A stretch of DNA of 64,000 bases, taken from contig OX485804.1 in assembly GCA_950295325.1 (NCBI GenBank), positions 44,256,429-44,320,428 of the forward strand, given 5' to 3'. Below are positions 5,183-62,049 of the stretch, piece by piece. The translations under genes and the position numbers were made by a program. The notes under the pieces are model-generated. The model searched no databases. It was not told the DNA's origin and worked only from the letters and a program-made list of their open reading frames with translations. This DNA comes from Polytrichum commune. Lineage: Eukaryota; Streptophyta; Polytrichopsida; Polytrichales; Polytrichaceae. Numbering within the stretch: position 1 is the first letter of the stretch; each line of letters begins with the position of its first letter.

Positions 5183-5564
5183 ACTTGGATGTTGCCACCG
5201 TCATGATATATGGTGTTGCTTTGTCTTCAAGTTAGTCTTACTTAATTCTATGTGTTATTCTAAAACAAACATCACACGGCTTTAGGGGTCCTCGAAGACT
5301 AATATCTCTTGAATGCCTTGAATGGGCGTGAACAACATAGCCCACACATATAATCTCCCTCAAGGACAAGCTCCATGATTGGTTGACAATAACTAGTTCA
5401 TCCACATACTCCCACTATGATCGGGTGGACCATAATGGTGGGGTACACTAAAAATCATGAAGTGCTAGGACATTGACCCAACGGGAGCCCATTGAATGCC
5501 ATTAGGAAGCTTCAACCTTGAAGTTATGAGGGATTCTAGGTTAAGACCTTGGTTGAAGCCACCC
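5183..5564 (-). mobile_element. 5S-headed SINE-like element, copy 1 (decayed, full length)
   Basis: Read on the minus strand from 5564, the copy starts GGGTGGCTTCAACCAAGG and carries a mutated 5S rRNA-like head down to about 5440 (GAATCCC, AACTTC, GTTGAAGC, ending GTGTACCCC, which could pair with the 5' GGG). A tail of about 250 bp shared with the 29-kb and 32-kb copies follows, ending near AACACCATATATCATGACGG and GGCAACATC. Homology to the other copies begins at the 5S start, not before it. The head shares non-5S changes with the 32-kb copy, so both come from one founder element. The pol III box C is damaged here. Confidence 0.5.
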
Positions 5565-5841
5565 AATGCAACTAAAAATGAAGAGTGAAAATTCAAAATT
5601 CAAACGACGTTTCCAAAAGTGGTCAAATCGTACAAAACCTTTTCCAATATCTCCATGTATCTAGAAGATCAACCCCATGTCCACCCCCCCTCAACCTTCA
5701 TTTCATAGCAAATGAACAACGTGTGTTGCGATGTGAATCAAGCCTTTAGGGATCAACGATTAAAGTATGAAATTGGAACTTGGATTGATATGGAAAAGTA
5801 ACACAAACATAATCCAATTGGTACAAATGGCTTGCACATAA

Positions 5842-18190: not shown

Positions 18191-18619
18191 GCTTTAGCCT
18201 ATGCTCACCCATGAACAATAATATCGAACCCATGCCCACCCATGAACAATAATATCGTAGCCATGCCCACCCAAAACCCATGGGCATGGGTGGGCATGAG
18301 TACGGGCACCCAATGTAGGGCTTTGGTTCAAATTAGTTTAAGGGTCCCTATTAGTGATCGCAGAGATTTTTGGGCACAATCGGTTGAGATCTCAATGTTT
18401 GCAAGTCCAACTGGTTACATGTTGACATCCTTCGGTTTTCCTTTATTAATTGGGGTATATTCTATAAGTTCCTCTAAAACGATCGGTAATTTTCGTACAA
18501 TCTTGAACTTCAACCAATTGTTTCTCAAACTCAACCGGTTCATCTGTCACTAACTGCCCAATTCTCCCCGATCATAGGTCCCTATGTTCTTGGATTGTGG
18601 TCCCATCTAAAACAACCAT

Positions 18620-19513
18620 TAGGGCCAGTTCACATGGGTTCCTAAGTCCTAAGTCCCAAGTCACTCGAGTTACAATTGCAACTGTTGAGATCATGGCAGA
18701 TGGTACATATCACTTCATATAGGACCCCAATTTGTAAGTTGCAAATATGACATGGATGCCTACGTGACAACACTTTTTGAAGGTGAGGCTTGGGACTCTT
18801 GTTGAAAGGTAGGTCGAGCAAAAAACTAGACCCAATTCTCAACACAAGTCCCGAGAATATTCTCTCATAAAACAATCAAGATCCGACTTTTGTGATAATT
18901 AACCATATTCCCTTGATTCCTTGAGGCTCAAAAATTGGTATTTTTGCCTCCATGTTGGGACTTGGGACCCCATGTGAACCGGCCCTTAGTGACATGGATG
19001 CTTACATGACAACACTTTTTGAAAGTGAGGCTTGAAACTTTTATTGAGAGTTGGGTCAAGCAAAAAAGTAAACCCAATTCTCAACACAAGTATGGAGAAT
19101 ATTCTCGCATAAAATAACCAAGATCCGACTTTTGTGATAGTTAACCATATTCCCTCGATTCCTTGAGGCTCAAAAGTTGGGACTTGGCCTTCATGTTGGG
19201 ACTTGCTAACATGAGTGGGGACTTGGGACCCCATGTGAACCGGCCCTTAGTGACATGGATGCCTACACGAGAACACTTTTTTGGAGGTGAGGCTTGAGAC
19301 TTTTGTTGAGAGTTGGGTCAAGCAAAAAAACTAAACCCAATTCTCAAAACAAGTATGAAGAATATTCTCGCATAAAATAATCAAGATCCGACTTTTGTGA
19401 TAGTTAACTATATTCCCTTGATTCCTCGAGGCTCAAAAGTTGGGACTTTTGCCTCCATGTTGGGACTTGCTAACATGAGTGGGGACTTGGGACCCCATGT
19501 GAACCGGCCCTTA
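18620..19513. mobile_element. MITE family B with tandemly triplicated right arm
   Basis: The left end at 18620 (TAGGGCCAGTTCACATGGG) pairs with right ends at about 18988, 19249 and 19513 (each CCCATGTGAACCGGCCCTTA). Each right arm starts at a GACATGGATGCNTAC motif (18748, 18990, 19252) and repeats with a 242-262 bp period. So one left terminus faces three tandem right arms. Related copies are at about 37001-37346 and 39320-39714. There is no coding capacity. TA(G)GGC-type ends and lack of a gene fit a hAT-like MITE, but the target duplication was not established. Confidence 0.65.
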
Positions 19514-19529
19514 GTGTAGATGTAAGTTC

Positions 19530-25577: not shown

Positions 25578-27080
25578 TGGGACCAAGTCACTGACTAAAA
25601 TAATTTAATCATATGTGAGGGTTTTTGCATTCAATTTTTGTTGGCATCTTTGATGCCAACACTTAAATTGGGCAATGACCCTTTGGCTGGTTTAGCCTAC
25701 TTTTGGAGTCCATTTGGATTGGTGTATGCATGATTGGCTTAGCATATTGGCTTAGACATGGTATATATGAATATATTACAAGTTATGTTTTTAAAGTCAC
25801 TTACCCCACCTACTTAAATCCCTCCCTAGGTCCACACTTTTCCCACTGCAAACATCTCCCGAATTAAACCTGACAATTGCCCAACCCGGAACTATTTTTT
25901 GCCTAGAACCAACCCCACTTTCTCCCAAAATTGTTCCCACCTTTCACCCAAACCACCCCACACTAAAACCAACACTCCACACAATAAAAAAAATTGAGCC
26001 CTTATAACTTATGAATACATGGTCTTTATAAAACATATAAGTATGCCACCCTTAGTTACGTCCCAACGCTTGCCTAGATACAATCCCAATTTCACCCCAA
26101 ACCAACCCTGCATTATTTTGGAACCGCCCCACTTTTCACCCAAATCCACTTGTGCTTTGCACTGTAGATATTCAGACAATTTGAATGTCTAAGAGGCTCT
26201 CCACACACAGAAACATGTATTCGAGCTTCATCCTTTTTTTGTTTTGTTTATTGTGTCAATAGTGACCCTATCTATAATTAAATTACTCTTCAAGTGCACT
26301 TTTCCAATCGGTTGAATACCTTGATGTTATTTTCTTCAAATTATTGGCACAATACCTTGATGTTATTGAAGATTTAAGTTCAAATACGCAGCCTGGGTGC
26401 CCTTGGATGCAAATACATACGTTGTATTTTGATAACCAATGTCAAGTATGAGTATATTTTTATTTTTTCCTTGACAAAAGACAATATGTCAAATAAGGTT
26501 TCAAACCCATAAATGTGTATCATATGATTTTAAACTTGATGAGGCCCATATGGATTGTGTATTTGGCCGTACACCTACAAATTATGGTAAGTTGTAAGGC
26601 AACCCCATAAACATGGTAATTTACTTTGTCGTCCACAAAATGTGCCCAATACCAAAGCATGTTCACACGCTACCAGTACAAACACCTCTAAACCCACACC
26701 GCCAATGCACAAGGAATTTCAATAAAATAGGCTTCCACGCGTTCTCATTATCCCCAATTTAGAGGGGCTCTCTCCCCTCTAAATCCTTCTGTCCCTTCAG
26801 ATATGCACCTTTCAAAGGGGTGAGTTTCAACTCCTTTAAAAGAGAATCATCTCTCAATACTTCATAAGCTTTGACCAAATAGAATATTAGGTTCAAGTAT
26901 TTCTCTGCGAAGCCTTGTGTATTGTAAGATATTAGTTTTGATCATGAGACCCACAATTTATAGAGCTCATGTAGAGTGTATGTGTGTGGGACTACTGCAC
27001 TCTAAAGTACTTGTTACCCATTTTAGCATCCCTTTTTGTTTGGTATAGAACGTGTGATCATGCTCTCAGCAATTTTGCAG
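25578..27080. other. No gene seen
   Basis: AT-rich and pyrimidine-rich spacer. It contains a short hairpin at about 25638-25662 (TTGGCATCTTTGATGCCAA) and a repeated CCAACCC/CACCCAAACC composition at 25800-26160. No supported feature. Confidence 0.4.
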
Positions 27081-27726
27081 CTTCTCAACCTACAATGCAT
27101 TTGCATAGATGTATGTACATTTGCATACACACACAAAGGACCTCATGTGCAAATCCAAAAGCGAGAAGTTGAAGCAAATCGGGTGAGGATTGTGAAAAGA
27201 ATGAATCGGTTTTTTTAATTCTGAAGAATTGATACTTTTGACAGCTTCTCAACCTGCAATGCATTTGCATAGGTTTATGTACATTTGCATACCCACAAAG
27301 GACCTCATGTGCAAATCCAAAAGCGAGAAGTTGAAGCAAATATGGTGAGGATGGTGAAAAAAATGAATCGGTTTTTTTAATTCTGAAGAATTGATACTTT
27401 TGACAGCTTCTCAACCTGCAATGCATTTGCATAGGTTTATGTACATTTGCATACACACAAAGGACCTCATGTACAAATCCAAAAGCGGGAAGTTGAAGCA
27501 AATAGGGTGAGGATTGTGAAAAGAATGAATCGGTTTTTGAATTCTGAAGAATGGTACTTTTGACAGCTTCTCAACCCGCAATGCATTGGCATAGGTTTAT
27601 GTACATTTGCATACCCACGAAGGACCTCATGTGCAAATCCAAAAGCGAGAAGTTGAAGCAAATCGGGTGAGGATTGTGAAAAGAATGAATCGGTTTTTCG
27701 AATTCTGAAGAATGATACTTTTGACA
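27081..27726. repeat. Four-copy tandem repeat (160-164 bp) next to the PPR stop codon
   Basis: Units begin at 27081, 27245, 27407 and 27567, each with CTTCTCAACCTGCAATGCAT. They then carry GGACCTCATGTGCAAATCC and an AGTTGAAGCAAAT..GGTGAGGAT block, and end with GAATCGGTTTTT..CTGAAGAAT..TACTTTTGACA. Unit identity is very high, so the array is recent. It ends 12 bp short of the PPR stop codon (27739). On the minus strand the units stay largely open (27501-27085), giving a repeated peptide with LLAFGFAHEVLCG and KKTDSFFSQSSP. This looks like a chance consequence of the repeat, since the PPR frame has already stopped. Confidence 0.85.
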
Positions 27727-27738
27727 ATGTTGCCATCA

Positions 27739-30700
27739 TCATAAATGGCAAGGCACAAGTGCCCTAAAAGTACAAGAGATGGCAATCTCATGAGTCTCGC
27801 CGACTGCAGATGCACTTGCGTGTTGTTTTGTCCACATTCGGTGGGTGGAGACACAGTTGACGCTTCGAGGTTGCCGCCGAAGACTGCTGGTTTGGAGCCC
27901 ACACTTAGCACCTTCCATCTGATGATAATAGCTTGAACTTCCAAGTAGGTGATTCCAAGTATCCTGCATCTTCGCGTAATGAGAAACTGAGCTCTGGTGA
28001 TGACGACGACGATGATGATGATACAACGAGTTTGAAAAGTGTGTTGGCGAGAGCGATGAGGACTCAAAACCCCACGACAACAATTTTTTCGACAACCACG
28101 ACGATGTCGAGTCGCGTCGTCGAGGATTTGTACGGAACGATCCCGCGGTGAAGGAGGATGATCTGTTACTTGTTGCTACTGGTGGTTGTTCTGTGGTCGT
28201 CCTACGAGGATACGCAAGTTGTTCGGGCATCGTACCGACGTTCTCTTCTTCGGGGACGACGCCAAGAAGATCGTTGTGTGGAATCGATTTCCCTCCTTTT
28301 TTCATACTCAAAACTCGTTCGGCTTCCTCGGGAACACCGATGGAGCGCCAACATCCCGCGACCAAGTCGAGGGACTCGTCGTCGACGAGAAACCCCGACT
28401 TTTCGATGAGCTCGAGGACCTCTTCGGCTCGTCGCGGCCACCGCGCTTCATTAAACCCCCAGATGAGGGTGTGGAAAGTTTTCATGTTGGGACGGACGCC
28501 CCGGATGCGCATGTCCTTGAACACGCGCATCGCGTCGTCCATTTGGGCCAAACTGCAGTACCCGCTGATCACCGTCGTGTAGGTGACGATGTTGGGAATC
28601 ACGTTTTCGTCGTACATGACGCGCAGGAGGGCTTCCCCTTCTTCCGGCCTTCCTGCTCGCGCATAACCTTTGGCGAGGATCGAGTAGGTCACGATGTCGG
28701 GTCGAAGCTCGTAATCTTTCATCCTCAGTAAGGCCGCTTTCGCTTCGTGCATATGGCCGGTGTTGCACCAAGCGTTCATGATGATCCCGAACGTCTGAAG
28801 GTCCGGCTTTACTTCATACTGTTTCATCAGTTCAAACACCTGTAGGAAAGGGGGGTGAAGCCAAAAATCCATGAGTAGCAACGCAAAGCCACGCCTCATC
28901 TAAATGTCTTCCACGTAGAAACAAAATTCAAAACAGCACTACACCTTCTCAAGAAATGCTCACTGTTTCCCTTGGTAGCCACTCCCCCTGGGTAGTAGCT
29001 CAATTGTCAAATTCGTTATTAAAACGACACTCGCTTCTCCCAAACCCTGAAGCCTGAAGCCTGAAGCCTGAACCTTGGGTACAGGGTATAGGGTTCAGGG
29101 CAGGGTCGAAGGTAATATAGGAGGTTGAAGCCAAAAACATGAGAAGCAACGCAAGGCCTCATCGAAATGTCGGAGAGAGAGAGAGAGAGAGATGACTCCG
29201 ATGTTGCCACCAGCGTAAACTATGGTGTTGCTTCCTCTTCGAGTTAATCTAGTTCTATTTGATTCCAGAAACGGACATCACGAGAATTAGAGGGACCTTG
29301 AAGACTACTTGAATGGATGACTCCTTTGAAACGTGAACATCTTGAATGGGTGCGGTCAAGCTGGCCTGCGCTTGATCTCTCCCAGGGCCCAAGGGCCCTG
29401 GGTTCCCACATGCTTGGTTAAACCAGATTCGGGTTCACCCAGATACTCCTACTAGGATTGGGCGGACCATAGTGGTAGGGTGCACTAGAAATCAAGTGCT
29501 AGGAAGGTCACCCAGCTAAACCTTGGGTTCAGCCCACCCAATGTTGTCAAAAAGTCTTTGCAGAATGTCGAATTGTACTACTACACTTCCTCAAGAAATG
29601 CTCACTGCTTCCTTTGGAAGCCACCCGTTTGGGTACTAGCTCAATTGTCTAAATCGTTTCCAAACCGACACTTGGTTCTCCTAAACCCTGAACCCTGGAT
29701 TTAGGGTCCAGGGTTTGGGGTAATACTATTTCACACAGTTTCAGGATCTGCAACGGTTAACCAAGTCAAAGGCAGCCAGAAATTCACAGAAATGTTACGA
29801 CCATCAAGTCGATGCTTGACGTCAGAATGCCAATGTGATATATACTTGGAATGTCGTATATGGGAATTGATCCATTCAGGCCATGATTCTGATCAACAAT
29901 CAAATAGCATTGCCTCTTGCCTGTTGTCAGTGCTCACTCATTCATGGCCGAGCGATTACTTGGGAACTTTGTAAAGACTCAATTTCTTAAAAGTGTCTTC
30001 ACATTTGCAGAGAACCTACAGATCTAACCACCAGTGATCCTGGTGTATTTTGAATATTTAAAACCTTTGAGGCAGAATGTGAGGAGGTTGTTCAAGAATG
30101 TGGTACCTTGTCAACTCCCTCTGGCTGCAATGCTTCAGCATAGCCTTTGATCAGATGGTTGAATACCGCTGTAGTGGGTTGAACCCCTTCACTTCTCATT
30201 CGCTCAAGCAAAGGAAGCGTGTCTTCATATTTTCCAGCTTCTATGAACCCATTGATGACGATGCCGTAAGTTCGTTCATTGGGCCGTAGATATGCATTTT
30301 GCATCTCGCTGATGACGCGCTCCCCTTCCCGCGGCTTTCCAATCCTTGCATAGATCTGAGAGAAAAACCACACTCAAAAAGATATCAAAGATCTTTCCCC
30401 TGCCATCAGATTCAAAAGATGTGAGTAGAACCTCTGATTCCTTCGCTTGAGGGTTCGTACATCGGTCATACGTTGAGGCCTGTATCGTGGAACTGATTTG
30501 TGAAAGAATGTATACAGAATCATGTATTGACCCTCAAAACGTCACTCAAGCGCTGATGGGGTGTCAGAGAGAAGCAACAAAGGAAAATGTCTTATCAGGA
30601 ACTTCATCCTTAGTCGTTTTCTTTGAAGTGTAACCCATCTGAGAATACTTTTATTCTTGTAAGGAGGTTCTCCAATTGAAGAAATAAGCTGAAATTAGCG

Positions 30701-33700
30701 TGCAAAAACAGTCAAGTACGTGAAAAAATCCACCATACAATTCTAAGCAATATCTAGTATTTTGAGCCACCAATTCTATGCATGACTGTAATTTTTGTGT
30801 CTTTCAACCTATGTTTGTAAATAAGTTAGTTTTTGAGCCTTGGGACACAAATTCAGATAATAAAACCTTGCTATGAATTGTTTATGAATATTTGCAATCA
30901 TATTCTTATACATGCTTTCCTGGCATGTCAAACATGTTAAAATTTAGCTTTGAACCGCAGGGATGAAGTGATTTGTAACAACTTCTCCTGAAATCTAAAC
31001 AACATTGAGCATTGGAAGTTGTTCATCTTAAGTCATCTCGAATTTAAAAAACACCCTTGACCATTCAAGGGTTAACCACCTTCAGGAAGAAACAATGACT
31101 GAGCAACACCTCCAAATCTCATCAGCGAGCAATGAACTCTTGCAGGTTTAGAGTAATGCTAAGAGACAACATCAATGGAAACATTCGTTTTCCAAAACCC
31201 AACGGTTGAGAGTAAATGCAGACCTGTGCAAGCGTGTTGTATGAAACAACATCGGGGGCGATTCCGGCAGCTTTCATCAGTGACATCACGTACCGTGCCT
31301 CCTCTGGATTCTTCTGTCGTGCCCAGACATTGATTAGCATGTTGAATGTCCGGTCATTTGGCTTCGTTTTGTCGTCGTTGCCCATCATCTCCTGCAGCAG
31401 GTTCATAGCCTCTTCAGGCTGCCCAGCTAGCCCATAACCCTTGATCATTGTATTGTAAGTGCTTGTTGTTGGTGTACATCCTGCTTCCTTCATTTGCTTC
31501 AACACTGCTTTCGCCGCCTCCATCTTGCCAGCTTCAGAGTACCCATTGAGCAATGTGTTGAAAAAAATGGCGTCTGGTATGACGTCCTCCTCTTTCATCT
31601 GCTGAATTATAGTCGAACTTTCTTGTATTTTGCCATTCGCAATCAGAGTACTCAATAGCAATGTGTACGACTCCTTTGTAGGGCGGTGCCCATCTCTCTT
31701 CAGGCTTGAAAAAAGCGCCTGAGCTTGATGGTATTCGCCCCTGCATGCATTCCCAAAATTGAATCGCAGCAATGGAGTCCAAAGCTGTATGAAACGATTG
31801 TTAATCTAAACATTTTCTACCTAAGACCAGCCGAGGCACAGTCCACGCCAAGTATAAGCCTACACAATGCATCCTATGTCCCGATGGAGAAATTTGCGTC
31901 ACTCATAAGATGTGTTTGTGTAGATTAAAATGCACACTGTGCGTACCATAGACAGAAATCGAGCTCAACACCCCTAACGACGATAACATGTGAATGAGGA
32001 TGTGATGAAGCTCAAAATAATATTTGATACACATTGTGTCATTCACTTCAAATTACAAGGAAACTCAATTGTGAGATATCAATCTGCTTGCACTTCCCTT
32101 TTCCTTATTACCCATCTTCTACATGATCTCTCTTTCGGGGTGGCTTAAATCCAAGGCCTTAACCCGGATCCCATGGGAACTCCGAGGTTAAGCCATCTAA
32201 GGCCGGAGTAGTACTCGGACGAGTGACCTTCCTAGGACTTGATTTCCGGCCGGTTTGTCGGCGCCCGTTCGTTCAAGGTGTTCACCTTTCAAAGGAGGCA
32301 GTAGTCTTGGGGGGTCTCTAATTCTCGTAATACCCGCTTTGGGAATTACATATAGACTTAGTCCAACTCGAAAATGAAGCAACACCATAATTCACACCAA
32401 TGACAACATCGGAGTTGTGTTTCTTGCTTTCTTTCTTTCTGGTCTCTCTATCTCTCACCCACAAACGAAAAACTTGGAGCAATGAAGCTCTTTAATACAT
32501 TATAGCAGTAAGTGATGATCAACCCTTCCTACCTGCTTCGCATGGTTTTCATGAGGCGGGTCCGTGTAACTACAATGTGACATAGCTGCGTGTTGTTGAC
32601 GTTGGAGCAGCGGGCGCATTTCCGAACCGTCTGCGCACACCTCAACGACGTATGCCATTTGCTCCCACATCGGCCACACCGTGTCTGCATGGAGTCGACA
32701 ATCAAATGAAACTGATTATGTTTGTTGGGTCATTGTTCCGAACAGTAGTGATGATGAAAATAGAGAGAGGCTCACACAACTACTCGAGTGATTTTGGTTG
32801 TGGTTGTGGTTGTGGTTCAGGCCCACTTTCAACCACAACTACGATTTTTTCCAATTACACACACGGTGTAGTTGTAGCTCACAAGTGAATCTGACCTCGA
32901 TTATCATCCCTCCTATTGGTGCAACCCGTGGAGTGGACAAAAAGTTTTTTTAAGGTTTTTTTAATAGAAAGTTTGTCTAAGAGTAATTGCCCTCTTCAAA
33001 TCCTCTCCCATGCGTTGCCCTTGAAGTTCTCTCCGGCGCTACATAGTAACTACAGCAAAACAAAACCAAAGAAAGCACACTACAACCATCGCAACCACTC
33101 CCAACTACATCTTGTATCGTAATTGGGTAAGTAGGAATAGTTGTGGTTGTCATCAAAGCACCTTATCTCTTAAAAATAGAGCCAAAGAAATTAACCTACA
33201 ACAGTCGATCACCAAAACCTCTTGGGAATAAATTAGATAGTGGACACACGAACGAAGAGCCCCTCTAGGGTTCACCTACCCTAAGTTAGTTCCCCAGATT
33301 GATTGCTTCGCGCAAGTGGGTGCATCCATATTTCCACTCAGGACTTCCGGTGGGTATAACAAGATAGTGTTGCAGGTGTGGAATATTGAAGCTACTTTCT
33401 GACACTCAACATGGAGATCTCTCCTTTCCAACTCCAGCACGCAAGTTGAGGCCATTTTAGGCTTGAATTACAATTCAATTCAGATGTCCATGGGAATGAG
33501 AGCGTCGTTTGTCTGGAACCTATGTGCAAGGTTGAAACTCTAGCATGCTGGTCTCACATCCTTCCATTTGCTCATGTTACCGACTGTGTCTAGAAACCTT
33601 TGGAGGCACTTGTAGTGCTTTTGATTCTTGTGAAGTTGGTTAGCAACAGAACAAAAAACCCACAGACGGATTCTGGATTAATCTGTTCGTGCGGAGGAAC

Positions 33701-36990: not shown

Positions 36991-37000
36991 AGCATAATTC

Positions 37001-37346
37001 ACATGGGGTCCCAACTCCCAACTCCCAACTCCCAACATGGAGGCAATGTCCCAACTTTTGAGCCTTAAAAAATCATTAAAACATGGTTAATTATCACTAA
37101 AGTCAAATCTTGATTATTTTGTGCAAAAAAAACCACATGACTTGTGTTGAGAGTTGGGTTGAGGAAAGAGCTAAACCCAATTCTCAACACAAGTCCCAAG
37201 TCTCGCCTCCAGAAAGTGTTGCCATGTAGACATTCATGTCATCCTTGGGACTTAGGACTTGGGACTCCATGTGAAGTGATAAGTCCCAACTTCCATGCTC
37301 TCAACGGTTGAGATTGCACAAATTGATCTCAAGTGACTTGGGACTT
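37001..37346. mobile_element. MITE family B copy
   Basis: Starts TCACATGGGGTCCCAACTCC and contains the family markers CAACATGGAGGCAA, GAGCCTNAA and TGTTGAGAGTTGGGT, with CACTTGGGACTT-type phrases. It ends directly against a family A copy. The left terminal TAGGGCC is not preserved. Confidence 0.55.
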
Positions 37347-37858
37347 AGGGCCACTTCACATAGGAGACTGAGAGCCCGTGACTATTACACTTGAAGCACT
37401 CTCATTGGTGGAAAAGGCGGAGCTGGTCCAAGTTCGCTTCACACTATGCTTGAGGGACCAATGGAGTATATATGTGAATGCAAGATGCATGTAAAGTTTA
37501 CATGGATTCCTACATGGCATCGAATGGATCACATTTCATGGTTGCTTGGACTATTTTCAAAAACCACCTCTCGGAGGTAGGCCTAACACAAAACCATGAT
37601 ACCATGGCACTCCGAACACTCACAACCGTTGGTTTATTCTATTTTATCATGTGTGAGGACCCACGTGAATAGAAATTCATTGGAATAGCACTTTGATTGA
37701 GGGCGCGGTCACAAATGACCTCACACTACACTCAATGATCCGTGACCACACTACATGATTTTGGAGGTGTGTTGGGACGCGCGGCCTTTGGACACTTTCT
37801 TTTGGGCTCTCACAATTTCATGGTCGCGGCTCTTGGCTCGTGTGTGAAGTGGCCCTTA
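37347..37858. mobile_element. MITE family A, copy 1 (about 510 bp)
   Basis: Inverted ends AGGGCCACTTCACATAGGAG and, complemented, TAAGGGCCACTTCACACACG. A nearly identical copy is at 53972-54474 and an inverted one at 38811-39321. All three carry an open stretch that includes FKNHL.EVGLTQN and ALR.LTTV, but it is only about 60 codons and has no domain. Family B shares the TAGNGC..TTCACA ends, so A and B are probably mobilised by the same transposase (hAT-like is an inference). Confidence 0.7.
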
Positions 37859-37909
37859 AGACTTGAGACCCCGCGTGAAGTGGCCCTTAGCAAGCTAGCA
37901 CATCTTTGC

Positions 37910-38512
37910 CTCCTCACTGTTCCCCCCACCGTTCCCAATAGTGGCTGACTGTTGTTGTTCCGTTCTCCCACTGTTCCCAATAGTGGATGACTGTTGTTGC
38001 TCCGTTCCCCCCACCGTTCCCAACAGTGGTTGATTATTGTTGCTCCGTTCCCCCACCGTTCCCAAGGGTGGCTGACTATCGTTGCTCCGTTCGCCCACCG
38101 TTCCCAACAGTGGCTAATTGTTGTTGCTCCGTTCCCCACCATTCCCAATAGTGGATGACTGTTGTTGCTCCGTTCCCCCCACCGTTCCCAAGGGTGGCTG
38201 ACTATCGTTGCTCCGTTCCCCCCACCGTTCCCAAGGGTGGCTGACTATCGTTGCTCCGTTCCCCCACCGTTCCCAAGGGTGGCTGACTATCGTTGCTCCG
38301 TTCCCCCACCGTTCCCAAGGGTGACTGACTATCGTTGCTTCGTTCCCCCACCGTTCCCAACAGTGGCTAATTGTTGTTGCTCCGTTCCCCACTATTCCCA
38401 ATAGTGGCTAACTGTTGTTGCTCCGTTCCCCCACCGTTCCCAAAGGTGGCTGACTATTGTTGCTCCGTTCCCCACCGTTCCTAACAGTGGCTGACTGTCG
38501 TTGCTTACTTGT
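37910..38512. repeat. Minisatellite, about 14 units of 40-44 bp
   Basis: Unit consensus TGGCTGACTATCGTTGCTCC, then GTTCCCCCACCGTTCCCAA and GGG or CAG. The tract is GC-rich and purine/pyrimidine-skewed. Where units are a multiple of three, both strands stay open in more than one frame, giving repetitive peptides such as WERWGNGATI and GTVGERSNN. These should not be read as genes. Confidence 0.85.
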
Positions 38513-38810
38513 TACGGTGGGTTTGATTTGCCTCCACACACTTGGTTTTTGCATAGGCACGACGTTGGAGGGGTGGAAGTGTTTGAGGGATCTTGGAGGT
38601 TGAGTGTGTAGTGAGTAAAGTTCATTCATGTGCTGGTGGATGGCCTACGGCCATGAGATATGTTGTGCGGCGAGAGAGACATAGAAGCAGCTATCCTCAC
38701 AAATCTTCAAGAATCAGGCAGGCACTCTTTTCCCCCTCGAGTCAAGGGCTCAGGTTGGTAGACTTTGTGTTGGATTTGGGAGTTTGGATAACATGAACGT
38801 AGATGGGTCT

Positions 38811-39321
38811 TAGCGCTGGTTCACACACGAGCCAAGAGCCGTGACCATGAAATTGTGAGAGCCCAAAAGAAAAGTGTCCGAAGGCCGTCCCAACACACTT
38901 CCAAAATCACGTAGTGTGGTCACGGACCCTCAAGTGTAGTGTGAAATCATATGTGATTGGGTTCTCAACCAAATGCTATTTCAATGAATTTCTATGTATG
39001 CGGGTCCTCACAGATGATAAAATACAATAAACCAACGGTTGTGAGCGTTCGGAGTGCTATGGTCTCCCGGTTTTGTGTTAGGCCTATCTCCAAGAGGTGG
39101 TTTTTGAAAATAGTCCAAGTGACCATGAGACATGAGACATGATCCATTTGATGCCATGTAGGAATCCATGTAGCCTTTACATCCATCTTGCATTCATATA
39201 CTCTGTTGGTCCCTCAAGCGTAGCATGAAGCGAATTTGGACTAGCTCCGCCTTTTCCACCAATTAGAGTGCTTGAAGAGTAATGGTTGTGGGCTCTCAGT
39301 CTCGTGTATGAAGTGGCCCTT
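38811..39321. mobile_element. MITE family A, copy 2 (inverted)
   Basis: Left end TAGCGCTGGTTCACACACGA and right end TGTATGAAGTGGCCCTTA. The interior is the reverse complement of 37347-37858. It abuts a family B copy, with TTAGCGCTGGTTCACAC at the junction serving both. Confidence 0.7.
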
Positions 39322-39714
39322 AGCGCTGGTTCACACCGTGTCCCAAGTCCCACTCATGTTAGCAAGTCCCAACATGGAGGCAAAGCCCCAACTTGTGAGC
39401 CTCAAGTAACTGCTAAAATATGGTTAATTATCATGAAAGTCAGATCTTGGTTATTTTATGCAAAATGTTTGCAAGACTTGGGTTGAGATTTGGGTCTAGC
39501 TTTCTGCTCGACTCAACTCGCAACACAAGTCCCAAGCCTCACCTCCAAAAAGTGTTGTCGTGTAGTCATCCATGTCATACTTGGGACTTAGGACTTGGGA
39601 CCCTATGTGAAGTGGTAAGTCCCAACTTCCATGCTCTCAACAATTGAGATTGCATAGATTGACGTCAAGTGACTTGGGACTTAGGACTTGGGACCCCGTG
39701 TGAACCGGCCCTTA
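39320..39714. mobile_element. MITE family B copy (about 395 bp, complete ends)
   Basis: Left TAGCGCTGGTTCACACCGTG; right, complemented, TTAAGGGCCGGTTCACACGG. The interior matches 18620-18988 and 37001-37346. Confidence 0.7.
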
Positions 39715-41209: not shown

Positions 41210-41587
41210 CTACACTAAATTTGATATTTAATGTCACTGATTCTAATTGTCTTGCTCAATACTAATTGTAAACCATGGCGTAGTGTCACCAATACTAAAC
41301 GTTAAGTCAACATTATTTGTCATTCCTTGTATATTTTTTAGGGGATTATAGATTTATAGTGTTGTAATTACTGTCACTTACCAAGTGAATTTTCATTCAA
41401 ACTTCAATCATTCATGACAGTATTTCATCACAAGTTGCTGACAAGAGAAGGTAGGGTTTTGGCCAATGCATGGACACATCCATCATCCATGACAGTATTT
41501 GTTCACTTATTCATAAGAATTGTTATCCAAAAAATTACCATAGTGACATAAAATACCATATGACACTAAATATCATATTTAGTGTAG
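41210..41587 (-). mobile_element. MITE with palindromic ends (family P1), inverted copy
   Basis: The interior is the reverse complement of 58500-58876. Ends are CTACACTAAATTTGATATTT and CACTAAATATCATATTTAGT, then GTAG. A detached extra end (41133-41195, ACACTAAATATTGTATTTAG then TGTCACTGTGGTAACTTTT) lies just outside, so a second copy was probably broken here. Confidence 0.75.
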
Positions 41588-42336: not shown

Positions 42337-45300
42337 TTAGCCCCTAGGGTTCAAAAACTGGAGCACAGAATCAGCTGTGCAATACGCAATCGACTGAATC
42401 GTGACCATGGGGTTGACACCTGAAGAGGTTGGCAACACACTTCCATCTCCCACAAACAGGCCCTCCACCTCCCAAGTCTCCCCCCTTGGATCCACAGCGG
42501 AAATGCTGGGGTTGATCCCCATTCGGCAGCTGCCCAGTTGGTGAGCGGAAGCTATCTGGATTGGGTGGTTCTTTGCGCCGTGGCGTCGCACTCTCGACAT
42601 GTAGGCTTCAATCTCTTGAGCAGATGCACCTGCCAAAAAATGAGGGGAAACTTAAGACTAGTAACAAAGTGGGAGAAACGGGATGCAAAGAATGTCTTAA
42701 TTCCAGCCATGCATCCCATCACTGTAATTTGGTCCCAAGTGGTTTGTAATGCATTCTCTGGAGAATACATCGTCTTGTATGAAAGTATCGGTAGCCCCAA
42801 GAAACAAACGCATCAAATACCCATCAAATACTTAGCATACCTAGTCCTAAACAAAAGAAAACTAGACAACAAACAAACTCCCATGACCACATAAACCCTA
42901 TAGCACAGTGAGTACCGATCATCTAACTATATGGAGCTCATCTTCCGAAAGGAAGGGAGTATCTTTCTCTAATGCTTGTTAACACATGATCAGAGTAAGG
43001 GAGAACAGACTCCCATCCACATCGGTGCACAAACACAAAACGTTTGTTTTATTAAGAGTCCTATTCACCTACAGGCTGCTGCTCCCTTTCGGGGGTGGGC
43101 TCTACATACTTAACAACAATAGAGTAATCCGCAAAGTCTTCAGAGAGGGACCAAACAAGGGGTGTGATGAATCTTTGGAGGACTTTTCTATTAAGAGCTC
43201 ATTGGAGCTTCTTGTGTCGGAGCCTAATTTTGTAACATGGGTGAAACTCCTACCAATGAGCCCTGAGGTGGCAACTGGCTGCAGCCCCGCAACATTAGAA
43301 CTTCATTTGGAGCTGTTAAGACATTTTGAAGTAGCATCATTTTGGAGCTACTTATGCGTTATAGCCAGTTTTAAGACTAATAACTCTAAGAAATATAGTA
43401 AATTCTCTCAAAAATTTAAATAGACACCTAGACTGTCTCGATGGTGACCCTTGCTCAAAAATTGCTTTCAACTAGTTCTAAAAGGGACATCTGAAACTGT
43501 AAACCTCTTCTAAAACATATGTGTCAATGGATTCCTCTTTGTGCCCTCCTCTCTTTCCAAGTATGATGCTCCTCTTTGTGTTGTAATATATTATCACTTT
43601 ATCAGAAGCATTCAAAGTGATTTAGAAAAAGCTGATCTAAAAGGGAGAGCTCAGGGTGGGCACTAGCATTAGCATTACAAATATAGGTGAGTTATAAAGA
43701 TAGGGTTTCAATTGTTGTTGGCAAGTAAAACATTTAGGTTTTTAAAGTAAAATAGGGTCTCCAAAAATCATATAAAGGTATATTCTCATAATAATAAAAT
43801 ACTAAAAAACAAAAATTCAGTTTTAAGGTATTCCTTATAACCCCCCAGAAAATACCCTTCAGATGCACCTGCTTGCCAGAATTTACAAAGAGTGACCCCC
43901 CGGGAGGGAGAGTTGCTTACCCTGAGCCTTGAAACGCTCTCCTTCTAAGTGCTGGGTACCTACTTCCACAGCCCCAGCTGCAATGAGGATGCGCAAGCTT
44001 TGCACCAAACCTGCCACCAGGCTCTCTTCATCATATGTGGAGATAGTGTAATGAAGCTTCGGAATCCCCTGTTTATCCACTCCCACGCTCCCAGAACCTT
44101 TGTCTCGTGTGACAACTGTAATGTGGGAAGTGCGACTGTGTCTCATCAAGCGCTCTTTGCCATCTGCACCTGCATCAGACAATAATAAGGTAGACGGGAT
44201 TAAAATTTTCCTGTCAATAGAGTTATGCATACAGTCCCTCAAAGAAGAGGGACAAAATCGTCTATGGAAAGATATTTCTATTAAGAGCGCATGAGCACGT
44301 CATGTGACGGAGCCTATTCAGAAATTTGGGTGAAACTCCTAGGACCTCCTGTTGTCATCCCAAAAACTTTGAGAAAACTTTAGGATTTAAAATAGGGTTT
44401 GCAATTGGTGCCCGTCACCCTAAATCCCAAATCGGCCTATGCAAGGCGCCTGGCCCATCCATCCCAGCATGACAAGCTAGAAATTCAAATTTTAATAGCT
44501 CAACACCACTGTTTGAACATGTTAATTTAAGTCTTAAGAAAACTTGGGGACTTTATGGTTACACTCTCAAACTCACATTTTAGCCAACTCAACAGGAGTT
44601 TGATCCCAAGACTTTACACATACAGTAACTCTAATGACCTAAGAATGAATTCATTTGGGGCGGGAGACTAGATAGGCTACTCAAGAATGTTAGGCATTGT
44701 TTGATACGTATCGATTTAATAGACTTATCCTTGAAGTAACTGTCCACGTGGTTTTAGGGGTGAAAATGAGTTCATCCCAAAAATAAAGGCATTTTAGGGA
44801 TTTCTAGATGTAATTTCTGCAGCCGAAGCCATGAACCCTCTAATAGGCTTGAAATAACAAAACACGACATCAATTCGACCTAATGGAGGAGGGTAATGAA
44901 TACTTTAAGGGTGGTTCAAACACTCGAATTCAAGATTGGACCCAGACTAATGAATCCTCTCGTTTTGACCCACAACTCAATCTTCCTTTGATCCTTTTTA
45001 GGACTCAATAAAGTACACTAAAACGGCTTTGAAAAAAGGCAAGAGTCTTCCATTTGCCTATAATTCTCGCAGTGCCCGTTTCGAGATTACAATTGCAATA
45101 AGACCACCTCACAGATAAAGCAAAACCATAATTCAGACAGTGGCAGCATCAAAGGCATCTAATCTTCATTCTCCTTTAGGCTCGAAGGGTCAAACACAAG
45201 GCGAGATTCGTGAAAGGTGGGTATGGGAGCTATATGTATGATGTGGCCCAAGTTTCGGCCTCACCTCCCTATAATGAACGACCTTCTGACAGGCCACCGA

Positions 45301-53210: not shown

Positions 53211-53970
53211 GCAAGCAAGCTTGCCCGCCTCAATAGAGTAAAACTGTGTAAGCAACCGCCTAGCCCAAGCCTCAAAAATCTCTGTCGTCCTCCTCCCTAC
53301 TCTCCCGCTGAGTTTTTTGAGCTCCAAAGACTGTGAGGAAGCTTGGCCCAGCGACTTGGAAGCAATACCTAGTGTTTGTGACTTCGATGTAAGTACGTGC
53401 TACTTCTAAGTTAGATGATGATGTACTATGTTGTAATTTACTTACCAGCATATACTTACAAGGTGCTCAACCAAAAAAAAAAAAAAAACAAACAAACAAA
53501 GTTCTACCTATCTACCTACCGTATCGGCGAAAGTACTACCTGCCGTATCGGCTAAAGTTCTACCTGCCGTATCGGCGAAAGTACTACTTTCCGCTGCCGC
53601 TGGGCACCTGAATCAACTTGAAGAGAGGTGCAGAGAGAGAGAAAGAGAGTGAGTTGAGCGTCTCTGCAAGCAAGCAGCAATAATGCTGCGACGCAAACGC
53701 AAAAATCACTCTTAATCAAGTTACTTCATGAAGTACTCGTCGATTTAAGGAAGGAATTTGTAAGTACTTGAACTTGTTAACTTACCGGAGGAACGGTGAG
53801 CGTCGCCTGAGATGATTTGTGAGTCGTTGTGCACAGACAGACAGACAGACAGACAGACAGACCGAGGAATGGATGGATGGAAGAATGAATGCATGGATGA
53901 ATGGATGACCATGCGGCACCTTTTGGTGGGTGGATATTTTTTAATGCTCATTCCTTCTTGAGTCCTCTCT
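53211..53970. other. No gene; simple repeats
   Basis: Contains an (A)n run near 53471, a triplicated ACCTGCCGTATCGGCNAAAGT block (53513-53590), (CAGA)n at 53835-53862 and GGATGGATGAATG runs at 53868-53906. The same GGATGGATG plus CATGNGGC(A/G)CCTTTTGG motif recurs at 55000-55075 and 55480-55545. Confidence 0.5.
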
Positions 53971-53971
53971 G

Positions 53972-54474
53972 AGGACCATTTCACACACGAGACTGAGAGC
54001 CCGTGACCATTACACTTCAAGCACTCTCACTGGTGGAAAAGGCGGAGCCGGTCCAAGTTCGCTTCACACTACGCTTGAGGGACCAACGGAGTCCGTGAAT
54101 GCAAGATGGGTGTACAGTCTACACGGATTCCTACATGGCATCAAATGGATCATGTTTCATGGTCACTTGGACTATTTTCAAAAACCACCTCTTGGAGGTA
54201 GGCTTAACACAAAACCGGGAGACCATGGCACTCCGAATGCTCACAACCGTTGATTTATTCTATTTTATCATGTGTGAGGACCCGCATGAATAGAAATTCA
54301 TTGAAATAGCATTTGGTTGAGGGCCCGGCCACATGTGACTTCACACTACACTTGAGGATCCATGACCGCACTACATGATTTTGGAGGCGTGTCGGGACGG
54401 CCTTTGGACACTTTCTTTTGGGCTCTCACAATTTCATGGTCACGGCTCTCGGCCCGTGTGTGAAGTGGCCCTGA
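53972..54474. mobile_element. MITE family A, copy 3
   Basis: Ends AGGACCATTTCACACACGAG and, complemented, TCAGGGCCACTTCACACACG. It is very similar to 37347-37858 over its whole length, so movement was fairly recent. Confidence 0.75.
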
Positions 54475-54622
54475 GTGTGATGATCATCGTCCCACGTTCT
54501 TCAGTCGGTTTTTAAAGCAGATGCGCACGTGTGTCATGTCGCCACTGGTTTAGAGGACGCACATCATACCTGTAGCCAAATCATTTGGCGACATGTGGCC
54601 AGCACCATGCTTACGTAGAGGA

Positions 54623-55545
54623 CTACACTGAATATGATATTTTATCGTCCTATGGTATTTAATGTCAATATGGGAACTTTTCAGATGACACTTCTAAAGA
54701 ATAAGATCACAAATACTGTCATGGATGATGGATGAGTTCATCCATTGGCCAAAACCCTACCTTCTCTTGTCACCAACTTGTGCTGAAATATCGTCACGGA
54801 TGGTCGAAATTTGGATGAAAAATCACTTAGTAAGTGAAAGTAATTGCAACACTGTAAATCTAGAATCCTCAAAAAAATTCACAAGGAACGACAAATGATG
54901 TTGGGATAGCGTTTAGTGTTGGTGACACTATGCCGCGGTTTACAATTAGTATTGAGCAAGGCACTTAGAATTGGTGACATTAAATATCATATTTAGTGTA
55001 CATGAATGGGTGGATGGGTGGATGAATGGATGGATGGATAAATGATGAGGAGGACCATGTGGCACCTTTTGCTTGCGTAGAGGACTACACTGAATATGAT
55101 ATTTTATCGTCCTATGGTATTTAATGTTGATATGGGAACTTTTCGGATGACACTTCTAAAGAATAAGTTCACAAATACTGTCATGGATGATGGATGAGTT
55201 CATCCATTGGCCGAAACCCTACCTTCTCTTGTCAGCAACTTGTGCTGAAATATCATCATGGAAGATTGAAATTCGGATGAAAGTTCACTTAGTAAGTGAA
55301 AGTAATTGCAACACTATAAATCTATAATCCCCAAAAAAATTCACAAGGAACGACAAATGATGTTGGGATAACGTTGAGTGTTGGTGACACTATGCCGCGG
55401 TTTACAATTAGTATTGAGCAAGGCACTTAGAATTGGTGACATTAAATATCATATTTAGTGTACGTGAATGGGTGGGTGGGTGGATGAATGGATGGATGGA
55501 TAAATGATGGGGAGGACCATGTGGCGCCTTTTGGTGGGTGGATGG
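54623..55545 (+). mobile_element. Tandem pair of P1 MITEs on a 462-bp duplication
   Basis: P1 copies at 54623-55001 and 55085-55463 each start CTACACTGAATATGATATTT and end ATTAAATATCATATTTAGTG. Each is preceded by CTTNCGTAGAGGA and followed by GAATGGGTGG..GGATGGATAAATGATG and GGACCATGTGGC. Because flanks repeat with the element, this is a segmental tandem duplication and not two insertions. Confidence 0.8.
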
Positions 55546-57239: not shown

Positions 57240-58020
57240 AGCCACTAGCCCACGGACTTTTTTGGCTAGCGGTTAACCCAATAACTAAGGGTTATGGCTG
57301 AAAATGCTATTTGAAAAAGAAATGGGCTAGCCTAGCTATAGCTAGATCGAGGCCTGAAAATTTTGGGCTAGCCCAACTAGCTACGAGCTAGCTAAAGATA
57401 GGTCAACTAGCTCAATCGGCTCAAGCTAGATTAGGTAGCCAAGTTGCATGGAAAGCAACATTGCAGTTAGACTTGTAACATATGACGATACATATGAGGA
57501 ATTGCAGATAGAGGATGATGACGGTTCATTGGTAGAGAATGGCAAGCAACATGAATTAGACATCAATGACGATGAGTGATTTCAACTAATATGAAATATG
57601 ATTGTATTGATAAAATGACGCATCCTTGAATTCAACATATGAGCTAGTTGAGCTAGCTTTTTAGGTCAGCTAGCCAAGCTATATGGCTAGATCGAGGGCT
57701 TGAAAAATATGGGCTAGCCCAACTATGGCTACATCGAGGCCTGAAAAATATGGGCAAGCCCAACTGGGGCTAGATCAAGGCCTGAAATATATGGGCTAGC
57801 CCAACTATTGCTAGATCGAGGCATGAAAAATATGGGTGAGCCCAACTACGGCTAGATCAGGGCCTAAAAAAATGGGCTAGCCCAGCTATATAGCTAGATC
57901 GAGGGCCTAAAAAATTTGGGCTAGCCTAGCTGTGGCTAGATCAAGGCCTGGAAAATACAGGCTAGCCCAGATATTGCTAAATCAAGGCCTGAAAATATGG
58001 GCTAGCCCAACTAACTAATG
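57240..58020. repeat. GGGCTAGCCC minisatellite with an acidic coding scrap
   Basis: About ten units of 40-57 bp contain GCTAGATCGAGGCCTGAAAA then TATGGGCTAGCCCAACTA; TGGGCTAGCCCA is a 12-bp palindrome. Between two parts of the array, 57477-57579 is open on the plus strand and reads TYDDTYEELQIEDDDGSLVE then NGKQHELDINDDE and a stop. This is an acidic tail of the kind found after hAT dimerisation domains, but too short to assign. Confidence 0.65.
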
Positions 58021-58226
58021 GGTTGTTAAAGGTCTAGAGGAGTTTCACAATTTTATCATTTTACCATTTTCACCAACTTGGTTGGCACTTGAAAGAGTGT
58101 CCTACAACAACGATTGTAAAACAACCCTAAGAACTTCCTCTTACAATTGTCAACCCTAAAGTGGAAAGTCATACCATACTGCGTAGGCCAATTCCACACC
58201 AACGTGTGCATTAACATTAACATTAA

Positions 58227-58449
58227 CTACACCAAATATGATATTTAGTGTGACTTACTATTTGGATTTACACAGTGCTATATCTTTTTACTATTGAAAT
58301 AATTTTTCGCCAAATACATTTGTCAATGTTCTATAATGTCCAAACTACCAATTTAACATTTGTTGGTAAAATATGAGATATACAATAAATAGATATAGCA
58401 TTGCGTAATTCCAAATAGTAAGTCACACTAAACATCATATTTAGTGTAG
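58227..58449. mobile_element. MITE with palindromic ends (family P2, 223 bp)
   Basis: The outer 24 bp on each side (CTACACCAAATATGATATTT then AGTGT; CACACTAAACATCATATTT then AGTGTAG) are those of family P1. The interior is different (TGACTTACTATTTGGATTTA, inverted at the other end) and belongs with the AGTGTG MITEs at 24979 and 25387. Confidence 0.75.
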
Positions 58450-58499
58450 TGCAGTGACTAACCTATTCAAGATTCGTTTTGCCTACTCGCTATAGACAA

Positions 58500-58876
58500 C
58501 TACACTAAACATGATATTTAGCGTCATACGGTATTTAATGTCACTATGGTAACTTTTCGGATGACACTTCTTATGAATAAGTTTACAAATACTATCATGG
58601 GTGATGGATGACTTCATCCGTTGGCCGAAACCCTACATTCTCATGCCAACAACTTGTGATGAAATATTGTCATGGATGATTGAAATTTGGATGAAAAGTC
58701 ATTTGGTAAGTGACAGTAATTGCAACACTGTAAATCTACAATCCCCAAAAAATTTACAAGGAATGACAAATAATGTTGGGTTCATATTTAGTGTTGGTGA
58801 CACTATGCCGCGGTTTACAATTAGTATTGAGCAAGACAATTAGAATTGGTGACACTAAACATCATATTTAGTGTAG
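58500..58876 (+). mobile_element. MITE with palindromic ends (family P1, 377 bp)
   Basis: Complete copy with ends CTACACTAAACATGATATTT and AACATCATATTTAGTGTAG. The interior has GATGGATGACTTCATCC, GCCGAAACCCTACATTCTC and CGCGGTTTACAATTAGTATT. It lies only 50 bp from the P2 copy. Confidence 0.8.
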
Positions 58877-59071
58877 CTAGGGTGACAACTATCATGAAGC
58901 TCTCTACCTTGGACTTTCGGAGCTTGAACTTTTTTATGGGACTCACACCTTTTAGATGTCGCCATGAAAGACGTGGTACAACTAGGACAAGTTGCTTATT
59001 GATATCCTACGCTACCTCATGAAATTTGCTCATGAATGCCGATATTTTGAGCTCTTGGTTTTATGAGGCCC

Positions 59072-59300
59072 ACACCACGTCATTTATGGTATTTGGTGTC
59101 GGTATTTGAAGTTACGCATTGCTATAACATTTTCATTGGTAATGTAATTTTTTACCAAGTGAAGATGTTATTGTTATATAGTGTTCAAATAGTCAACTTG
59201 ACCATTTTTTGGTTGAAAAATGAGATCTATAGTAAACAAGTTATAGCATACCGTAACCCCAAGAAGTGAGTGACACTAAATACCATGAACGACATAGTGG
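59072..59300. mobile_element. MITE related to the AGTGTG/P2 group (about 229 bp)
   Basis: Left CACCACGTCATTTATGGTAT then TTGGTGTC; right, complemented, CCACTATGTCGTTCATGGTA then TTTAGTGTC. The next inner blocks (GTTACGCATTGCTATAAC and its complement) are also inverted, so the TIR is long and imperfect. No ORF. Confidence 0.65.
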
Positions 59301-61650
59301 ACTTTCTAGCATTTTTGGGTTATATTTGTCATGAACTTCTCGTTATCTAGCATCATACACTCCAACCCCCCCCCCCCTCCCCATAAAAGAAAAAGAAATT
59401 TGAGTTGAAATAAAAGCTTCTCTAATCCAAGCATCAACTTTGGAAATTGCGGGTTCGAGCTTTAATAAGTCAAGATCCTAGTGTTTCCAAGTCGAGTGTG
59501 TCAACGGGGGAATGATACACTCTAAACTCCGTAGTATCACACCTGTGGCAACCAAAGTGCCCGTGATATTACGGAGTTTTGTAGTGTTAATATGGATGCG
59601 TGATGATATAGAATTAGTGTAGCATGTGACATTATGGAATAACGCAAGGGAGATGTGAGGACGATTTGAGTCTGTTCTCTTGTCACCTATACTAGTGTGG
59701 TCCACTCCACTTGACCTTCCCGGGCGATGTGGCGGATGCATGCACCAACATTCACACAAGTGGCATAATAGGAAGAATAAGAATAAGAATAAGAATAAGA
59801 AGGTGACACTCCACATGCTGACACATGGCACAATGCGAAGGTGTGGGTTGACTTCTTGGATGGTTTGCATTAATGAAAAAATTCATAATATAAGGGAGAG
59901 AAATGTGACAATAAGGAGTAAGATTTGAACTACAAACATCCGTTCCCTAGGGTTTTAGGGTATTAGAGAATGTGTGGCATTATGGAGGTTGATATTACGG
60001 AGTTTAGGGTGTAATCTCATGTAACTCTTCGGTCAATGGATGAATGTGAGTAATGGATGAATGTGCAAGTATGTCCGTAGCTACTTACTTATTAATGTAC
60101 CCAACATTATTCGCCTCCATCTGCGGAGTACTAGGCACATGAGACTCATGAATAGCTTATTTAATAATCCTTTTGTGGGAAATTGAGACCAACATTGACC
60201 TTCAGCCACCAACCGGTCCGGCCCCATATAATCGGTAAAGATCTTTAGGGTTTCCAAGTCCACCCGGTTACATGTTGTGATCTTTCGGTTTTTCTTTATT
60301 AATTTGAGGTATATTCTATAGACTTTTTAAAAACATTGGTAGTTTTCATGAAGTCTTGAATTGAACTTTGACTAGTTATTTTTCAAACTCAACTGGTTCA
60401 TTTGTAACTACCAGTCGGGTGTCCCTGTCTCATACAATGACGATTGAGACTTCCTATAAAGGTAAGGTATCTGTGGGTGTTATTCAGTTCGTTTTCCATG
60501 TTCTCCAACTTCTACCGATTGTATTTACATTGGCAAATCTATGATGAGGCATCAGCAAGAATTGGATCTCCCCTCGTGTACTTATGGTTATCGGAAGTGC
60601 ATGCTTGTTGATTTCCAGCTGGACACACATGTCCTCCCAATACAATCTTAACTATTGAGTGCAGAGTAGTTCATAAATTTTGGAAGCCTTAGTCCAATAT
60701 CTTTTGAACATGTGCCATTGTGGTGTTTGTTCTTAGATCCTACTCAAACCATACATCAATCAAATATAGGGGTTCATTTAACACATGTAACTAAATAATG
60801 CTTGCATACGTTAAGCGGGTCTTAAACGGACAATCTTCTCTCCACACCCACTTCTCGTAGGATATGAAACATGCAATTAGTTGAGATTATTAGCAAATCC
60901 ATATCGTGCATGTAGCCATTTTCCTCATAAATTTGGAGCTTGTATGAATATCTTGTCCACTGTCAATGTGAAATTCTTGTGAGTTATTTAGATGATTGTA
61001 TAAGTCCTCCTAATTATGTTGATTTTGCGTCTAGAATAGTAAATGGATTTTGAGCCCCTAGTCCAATATCCTATCAACACGTGTCTTTTTGGTGTCTGTT
61101 CTTAGATTCACACCCAAGCATACACAAATCACATACAGTTGTCCATTTAAAATGATATACTTAATAAGGCAATCTACCTTATATTGTTGTGCAACTTGTG
61201 AAAGGCAACTCCACATTTGGTAGCGAAAAACATAAAAGTGAGCGGGTATTAAATGTACACTTTTAACTCTACACCCATTTCTCTTAGCATATGAAACATG
61301 CAATTAGTGTGAGATAATTAGTAGATCTAAATCTTACCCATAGCCATGTTGGGTGCAAACATGGTCAATTGAACCTATAGTTGGTCATGTATACTCAAAT
61401 GAATAAATTTCTTGGTCAAAGACTATAAAGTAGTGCCAAAATGTCTATTGATTTGAATTTCTTGATGTAACGCAATTTTTTTCTTCTTCAATTTGAGTTA
61501 CTTCTACCAACTTCAAAAGTATGTACATGTACACATCTTTATCTTCTTATTCTTTCCATAAAATATTGTTTGAGTTTCTAAACCAACATGTTTTCTAATA
61601 CCTTTTAGAAAACAATTTACGGTTTTCAAATTTAGTATGCATCTTTGAAC
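59301..61650. other. No gene; dispersed repeats and microsatellite
   Basis: Contains (AAGAAT)n at 59769-59800, a D1 copy at about 60470-60830, and a block at about 60265-60420 shared with 18405-18560 (GGTTACATGTTG, TTTATTAATT then GGTATATTCTATA, CTCAACCGGTTCAT-like). A CTC/GGAG-type ORF is absent. Confidence 0.45.
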
Positions 61651-61840
61651 CTTGAACTATTGTAGTGTACACTTTGTGGTCCAATTGACCATGCTTGCAT
61701 AAATATGTTCTTTATTTTTTGTACATGGGCTTAACTGAAATGCAGAAATTTCAAAGGCAAAATGTCGCTTTGAAAGAAATAATGCAACCATCAAGCTTGA
61801 CAACACAAACCAAAAACTAGACACAGAAGAAGAAGAAGAA

Positions 61841-61866
61841 CTCCGGTCTCTCAGGGGAGGCCGGAG
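61841..61866. repeat. GC-rich hairpin in the putative LINE 3' region
   Basis: CTCCGGTCTCTCAGGGGAGG then CCGGAG: a 6-bp perfect outer stem plus an inner CTC/GAG-type stem. An (GAA)n run is adjacent (61824-61840). It sits about 190 bp beyond the LINE stop codon on the minus strand. 3'-UTR hairpins are recognised by the reverse transcriptase in some LINEs; the role here is inferred. Confidence 0.45.
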
Positions 61867-62049
61867 TGAATAGAGTGTTTGTTCGTATGACATCCTTGAC
61901 CATACCCCAGGGTAATGGTTTTGGATGTAATACTACTTCACCCTTTGCAGGGAGTAGACACTATTTGAGTAACTAGTAAGGATTTACCGGTTAGCCATGG
62001 ACTGGGGGGGTGAGTGTGTGGGGTGTGGGTGTGGGGTGTGGGATGTATT

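Follow-up and report, generated by a model that had tools for sequence, protein, structure and literature searches.

A repeat family with a 5S rRNA-like promoter block in plant nuclear DNA, probably a SINE

We analyzed one 64-kb stretch of DNA (hereafter the window), which we take to be plant nuclear DNA because of its gene content. Pfam searches of seven open frames revealed two PPR proteins (27739-28899 and 31122-31772). Of the other five frames, one encodes leucine-rich repeats, one a GMC oxidoreductase and one an RNase H from a probable LINE; the last two matched no family. By eye, splice-like borders can be placed near 31741 and 28840 (acceptors) and near 31223 (donor); the PPR gene may also have an upstream exon that ends near 32533. 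Two copies of the repeat family described below, A (antisense) and B (sense), are probably located inside introns of one minus-strand PPR gene. Intron insertion is ordinary for such elements.

The repeat family is real. An nhmmer search of the 64-kb window, using a profile built from the four copies listed below, found four dispersed members (E 9e-109, 4e-88, 2e-76 and 8e-37, matches that are expected by construction as the model contains these copies) and no clear fifth copy, the next matches being at 0.57, 4.7 and 9.9. The profile was made from a whole-element MAFFT alignment in which the head of copy A was misplaced because this copy has no middle block; even so, all four outscored every other match by a wide margin. 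Heads, middle blocks and tails were therefore compared separately. An earlier sequence-only reading had described, for 32137-32415, a tail shared with 5183-5564, 29196-29540 and 45055-45165 and had called one copy 5'-truncated. Four related copies were indeed recovered at essentially those places, and one of the four, copy D, consists of the tail only, with neither head nor middle block. The family members and their parts are as follows.

32137-32415, plus strand: copy A, 279 bp, with the best preserved 5S-like promoter block and without the middle block
32137-32164, plus strand: leader of copy A, common to copies C and B, not detectably 5S
32165-32238, plus strand: 5S-like core of copy A, spanning the box A, IE and box C positions
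32416-32450, plus strand: 35 nt downstream of the conserved 3' end of copy A, rich in pyrimidines (83% C+T, P 0.002)
29195-29540, minus strand: copy B, 346 bp, with leader, 3' head remnant, middle block and tail, the 5S core missing
29172-29194, minus strand: (CT)n tail of copy B, which the empty sister unit lacks
28842-29056, minus strand: empty site, a paralogous unit that lacks the element and matches both flanks of copy B
5183-5565, minus strand: copy C, 383 bp, with leader, weak 5S-like core, middle block and tail
about 45027-45155, plus strand: copy D, tail only, 5'-truncated, with an uncertain left edge (45010-45027)

Comparison of the separate parts revealed common descent. All three head pairs among copies A, B and C scored above all 2000 shuffles, and the same was true of their leaders (0/2000 shuffles for each pair). 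The tails of the four copies are 71-80% identical over aligned columns (six pairs, 0/1000 shuffles each). Upstream of the leaders, similarity was at chance level, with 467/500, 153/500 and 123/500 shuffles reaching the scores of the three pairs. Copies B and C also have in common a middle block of about 100-120 nt (67 of 84 aligned positions identical), which was not found in copy A (89/1000 and 911/1000 shuffles reached the scores). Given the related heads and tails and the middle block of B and C, we conclude that the copies are old, belong to a single family and represent at least two forms of it. The proposed descent from a single master is borne out by the homology of heads and tails and by the non-5S leader common to A, B and C.

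The heads were compared with an Arabidopsis-type plant 5S sequence, whose letters, like the limits of box A, IE and box C within it, are as we assume them to be. Against this presumed sequence, 58 of 73 positions in the core of copy A are identical to 5S positions 29-101. The head of copy A reached a local score of 97.5, compared with at most 48.0 in 1000 dinucleotide shuffles and a best value of 49.0 outside copy A in the window (stepped scan, both strands). Rfam also placed its 5S_rRNA family here, at 32136-32254; the match reaches 27.4 bits, short of the gathering score of 38, and has an E of 0.18 across 4227 families and 64 kb. About 11 non-standard pairs, counted from the marks, appear in the Rfam alignment, so the block looks like a promoter and not like a working 5S rRNA. 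By segment, 19/21 positions ahead of box A are identical, followed by 9/15 for box A itself, 4/6 for IE and 14/18 for box C; box A is thus no better kept than its surroundings. The core spans about 10-37% of the length of copy A. Judged by its letters, the 5S promoter block of copy A is real.

The likeness to 5S is weaker in the other headed copies. Copy C gave a weak match (1/1000 shuffles reached its score), and copy B gave none that was significant (142/1000) because the middle of its 5S part is missing. Over the first 30 nt, neither copy A (1198/2000 shuffles) nor copy C (299/2000) is significantly similar to 5S, so detectable 5S homology covers approximately positions 29-101 and does not run from +1 onward. 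In copies A, B and C, the leader nevertheless starts where the 5S +1 would be expected by spacing, and its length keeps the 5S spacing. The sequence-only reading, which had claimed 5S blocks over 93 nt with the promoter, 5S heads in three copies and homology from +1 in all three, therefore holds in part: the blocks were recovered in copy A and the start is common to the three copies at the +1 spacing, but no 5S likeness is detectable in the opening 28-30 nt and the head of copy B cannot be counted as a significant match. The middle block was also compared with 5S in search of a further unit, with no significant match (753/1000 shuffles reached the score in copy B and 662/1000 in copy C).

Copy B sits within a degenerate tandem duplication (28842-29171 and 29580-29697) inside the probable PPR intron, and its flanks could be compared with the sister unit that lacks the element. 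The left flank (29580-29697) aligns with 28938-29056 (119 nt, 83% identity) and the right flank (29119-29171) with 28849-28908 (60 nt, 80% identity). Between the matching flanks are 408 nt in the unit with copy B and 29 nt in the empty unit, a net difference of 379 nt, of which copy B and its CT tail make up 369 nt (29172-29540). The remaining 10 nt would fit a target duplication (GACTTTTTGA on the left, GACATTTCGA on the right and GACATTTAGA in the empty unit). This fit is no more than suggestive; the overlap of the duplication with the empty site has a P of 0.013 in a comparison that was picked after looking. The last 20 bases of the left flank gave no significant alignment to the empty unit: with random pieces of the window in their place, 2833 of 5000 alignments were as good. 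Precise loss from the sister unit is an alternative to insertion of copy B. The flank repeats were also considered as LTRs, and this was rejected in favor of the degenerate tandem duplication in a probable intron.

The conserved 3' end is followed by a pyrimidine-rich stretch in copies A (P 0.002), B (P 0.003) and C (P 0.002), with P 0.13 in copy D. Exact target duplications were not found at the four copies, where the longest common words of 6-7 nt are within background. A gapped test against random flanks gave P 0.03 for A, 0.60 for B, 0.55 for C and 0.19 for D (combined 0.125); the test is rough, as the end coordinates it used fall short of the conserved 3' end by 11 nt in A, 6 nt in C, 3 nt in D and 1 nt in B. 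The ends, target duplications and 3' tail had been singled out earlier as the features to define: the ends are now set, apart from the left edge of copy D, and three of four copies have pyrimidine tails, but the duplications are not significant.

It had also been noted that the family would be a Cassandra TRIM if the homology of its copies extended beyond the 5S start, into an LTR with TG..CA ends and a primer-binding site. Within the window, we found no homology upstream of the start, no LTR partner and no nearby primer site. None of the four copies has a same-strand neighbor at TRIM distance in the 64-kb window. A methionine-tRNA primer-binding site (TGGTATCAGAGC, up to 2 mismatches) was not found near the copies; the motif has 3 matches in 64 kb, against 4.37 expected by chance, and the nearest is more than 3 kb from any copy. 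Cassandra elements duplicate 5 bp of their target. None of the three headed copies showed such a duplication at any of the boundaries tried, though decay of the copies could have erased it. TG..CA ends are possible for copies B and C and not for A. Terminal inverted repeats were absent from the headed copies (P 0.60 for A, 0.99 for B and 0.99 for C).

We interpret the family as probably a 5S-promoter SINE, similar to SINE3 and moved by a LINE. We favor this because the core of copy A is far above shuffles and was matched independently by Rfam, and because the copies have a common start and leader (A, B and C) and a common tail (all four) with nothing common upstream. The interpretation also draws on the absence of copy B from its sister unit, the pyrimidine tails together with one 5'-truncated copy, and the lack of an LTR partner, nearby primer site or terminal inverted repeat. 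The headed lengths of 279-383 bp also argue for it, as they fall within the 100-700 bp given for SINEs (PMC10886601). The core of copy A, the common descent, the common start of A, B and C, the presence and absence of copy B and the tails of three of four copies are directly supported. The SINE class, assigned from four decayed copies in a single 64-kb window, is likely. The original SINE proposal is supported in part: the common master stands, and copy B has a (CT)n tail and an empty counterpart, but 5S homology is not detectable to +1 and the target duplications fall short of significance.

Such an element would be a non-autonomous retroposon that starts with a 28-nt leader, continues with a 5S-type internal pol III promoter (box A, IE and box C) and a body, and closes with a conserved 3' region that runs into a pyrimidine-rich tail. 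TFIIIA and TFIIIC would bind the 5S-like core, and pol III would start at the first leader base, the position being set by the distance to the core. The reverse transcriptase of a presumed partner LINE would recognize the 3' region and tail, and the copy would be inserted by target-primed reverse transcription that may sometimes stop early, as in copy D. Against 58000-63900, the one LINE-like region compared, the A, B and C tails showed no more than background similarity.

Weak support for the SINE reading comes from copies A, B and D, which have no run of four T, as is also the case for 13% of random 380-nt stretches. Several observations count against it. The target duplications are not significant, the tails do not match the LINE-like region, and a strong 5S core is present in only one of three headed copies. 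Copy C has runs of T (TTTTT and TTTT) at which pol III would be prone to terminate. The 5S core of Cassandra, the known 5S-bearing plant element, has about the same extent as ours (approximately 70 bp; PMC10853983), and copies B and C are compatible with TG..CA ends.

These last two points favor solo LTRs of a Cassandra-like TRIM, in which the 5S promoter would lie inside an LTR whose partner and internal part were lost. We consider this unlikely, and it stays at lower weight on account of the core extent, equal to the Cassandra core unit, and the possible TG..CA ends of B and C. Cassandras are described as widespread in vascular plants, including ferns (PMC10853983 and PMC7215508), and the repeat length would suit an LTR. 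However, there is no two-LTR copy or array among the four copies, no primer-binding site near any of them and no 5-bp duplication at the three headed ones, and copy A does not permit TG..CA ends. In a set of 81 Cassandras, the 5S region occupies positions between 25% and 75% of LTR length and is never terminal (PMC10853983), and the core of copy A lies closer to one end, with partial overlap of the two ranges. In addition, the CT tail of copy B is within the inserted stretch, and PMC7215508 states that Cassandra leaves tandem arrays and BARE solo LTRs. A LINE-mobilized SINE could also be related to Cassandra by promoter capture, either the SINE having acquired its promoter from a Cassandra transcript or Cassandra from the SINE. 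This would account for the equal extent of the cores and for a non-5S leader ahead of the core, and one published proposal derives Cassandra from a SINE3 inserted into an LTR (PMC10886601). Nothing specific beyond the common promoter points to such a link, however, and Cassandra is set beside the family by description and not by sequence; we regard it as very unlikely.

Another short repeat, such as part of some larger repeat or a DNA element, might carry a 5S piece by chance. The few copies, the non-significant target duplications and a middle block present in two copies only are consistent with this, but the lack of terminal inverted repeats, the common 5' start, the pyrimidine tails and the empty site of copy B make it highly improbable. 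Finally, the strong 5S core of copy A could suggest independent 5S pseudogenes. The sequence-only reading had already rejected these. They are contradicted by the long non-5S tail common to all four copies, and also by the non-5S leader of the three headed ones, and we discount them almost entirely.

To our knowledge, plant SINEs are described as tRNA-derived. These elements (SINE2) are of a comparable size class and, like the present family, have dispersed and 5'-truncated copies; the promoter reported here differs in being of the 5S type. ARAGORN found no tRNA gene in the window, and the tRNA family is absent from the 10 Rfam matches up to E 10 in the 64 kb.

Known 5S-related SINEs come mainly from animals. 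SINE3 is reported from various vertebrates and some insects (PMC7245038), the lepidopteran PxSE4 and PxSE5 are 389 bp long with promoter regions approximately 63% identical to 5S (PMC8010984), and 5S-related SINEs are reported in Aspergillus fumigatus (PMC5063351); 5S heads are mentioned in general terms by AnnoSINE (PMC8825457). The family resembles such elements (zebrafish SINE3, HaSE3, PxSE4/PxSE5 and those of A. fumigatus) in its 5S-derived 5' promoter, body, short tail and dispersed copies, but differs in its plant host, a leader that is not 5S-like and a pyrimidine-rich tail. With Cassandra TRIMs it has in common a conserved 5S promoter core of approximately 70 bp and a short, non-coding structure (PMC10853983). 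Unlike Cassandra, the copies in the 64-kb window have no LTR pair, nearby primer-binding site or 5-bp duplication, their core is nearer the 5' end, and their common 5' boundary is at the expected transcription start. Ajax, a nemertean TRIM with a 5S promoter, similarly keeps the promoter part of 5S alone, but it has LTRs, a primer site and 5-bp duplications (PMC10886601).

No plant 5S-derived SINE was present among the literature matches listed, a search whose coverage leaves out most subscription journals and which does not prove absence. We tentatively suggest that the family may be the first plant 5S-promoter SINE, with an origin independent of animal SINE3, and a possible donor of the Cassandra 5S module through insertion into an LTR. 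If so, 5S promoters would have been captured by LINE-moved elements in plants too, and plant 5S-like matches outside arrays would not all be Cassandra or pseudogenes. It would also supply the missing donor for the origin of Cassandra from a SINE3 inserted in an LTR, a proposal reported by Kojima (PMC10886601).

The window contains further repeats. A tandem repeat at 27073-27726, with units 94% identical, overlaps a repeated minus-strand open frame. Direct and inverted repeats of approximately 250-530 bp (74-88% identical) at 36998-39685 and 18614-19516, with a further copy at 53969-54472, are possible DNA elements. Another dispersed and partly tandem family (approximately 380-460 bp, 85-95% identical) is found at 54608-55533, 58493-58875 and 41210-41587, and a LINE-like remnant with an RNase H domain is located at 62050-63492 on the minus strand. 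An inverted repeat at 37138-37197 gave a weak microRNA-precursor score on both strands in Rfam, far below the gathering score, and is likely a small hairpin within a repeat.
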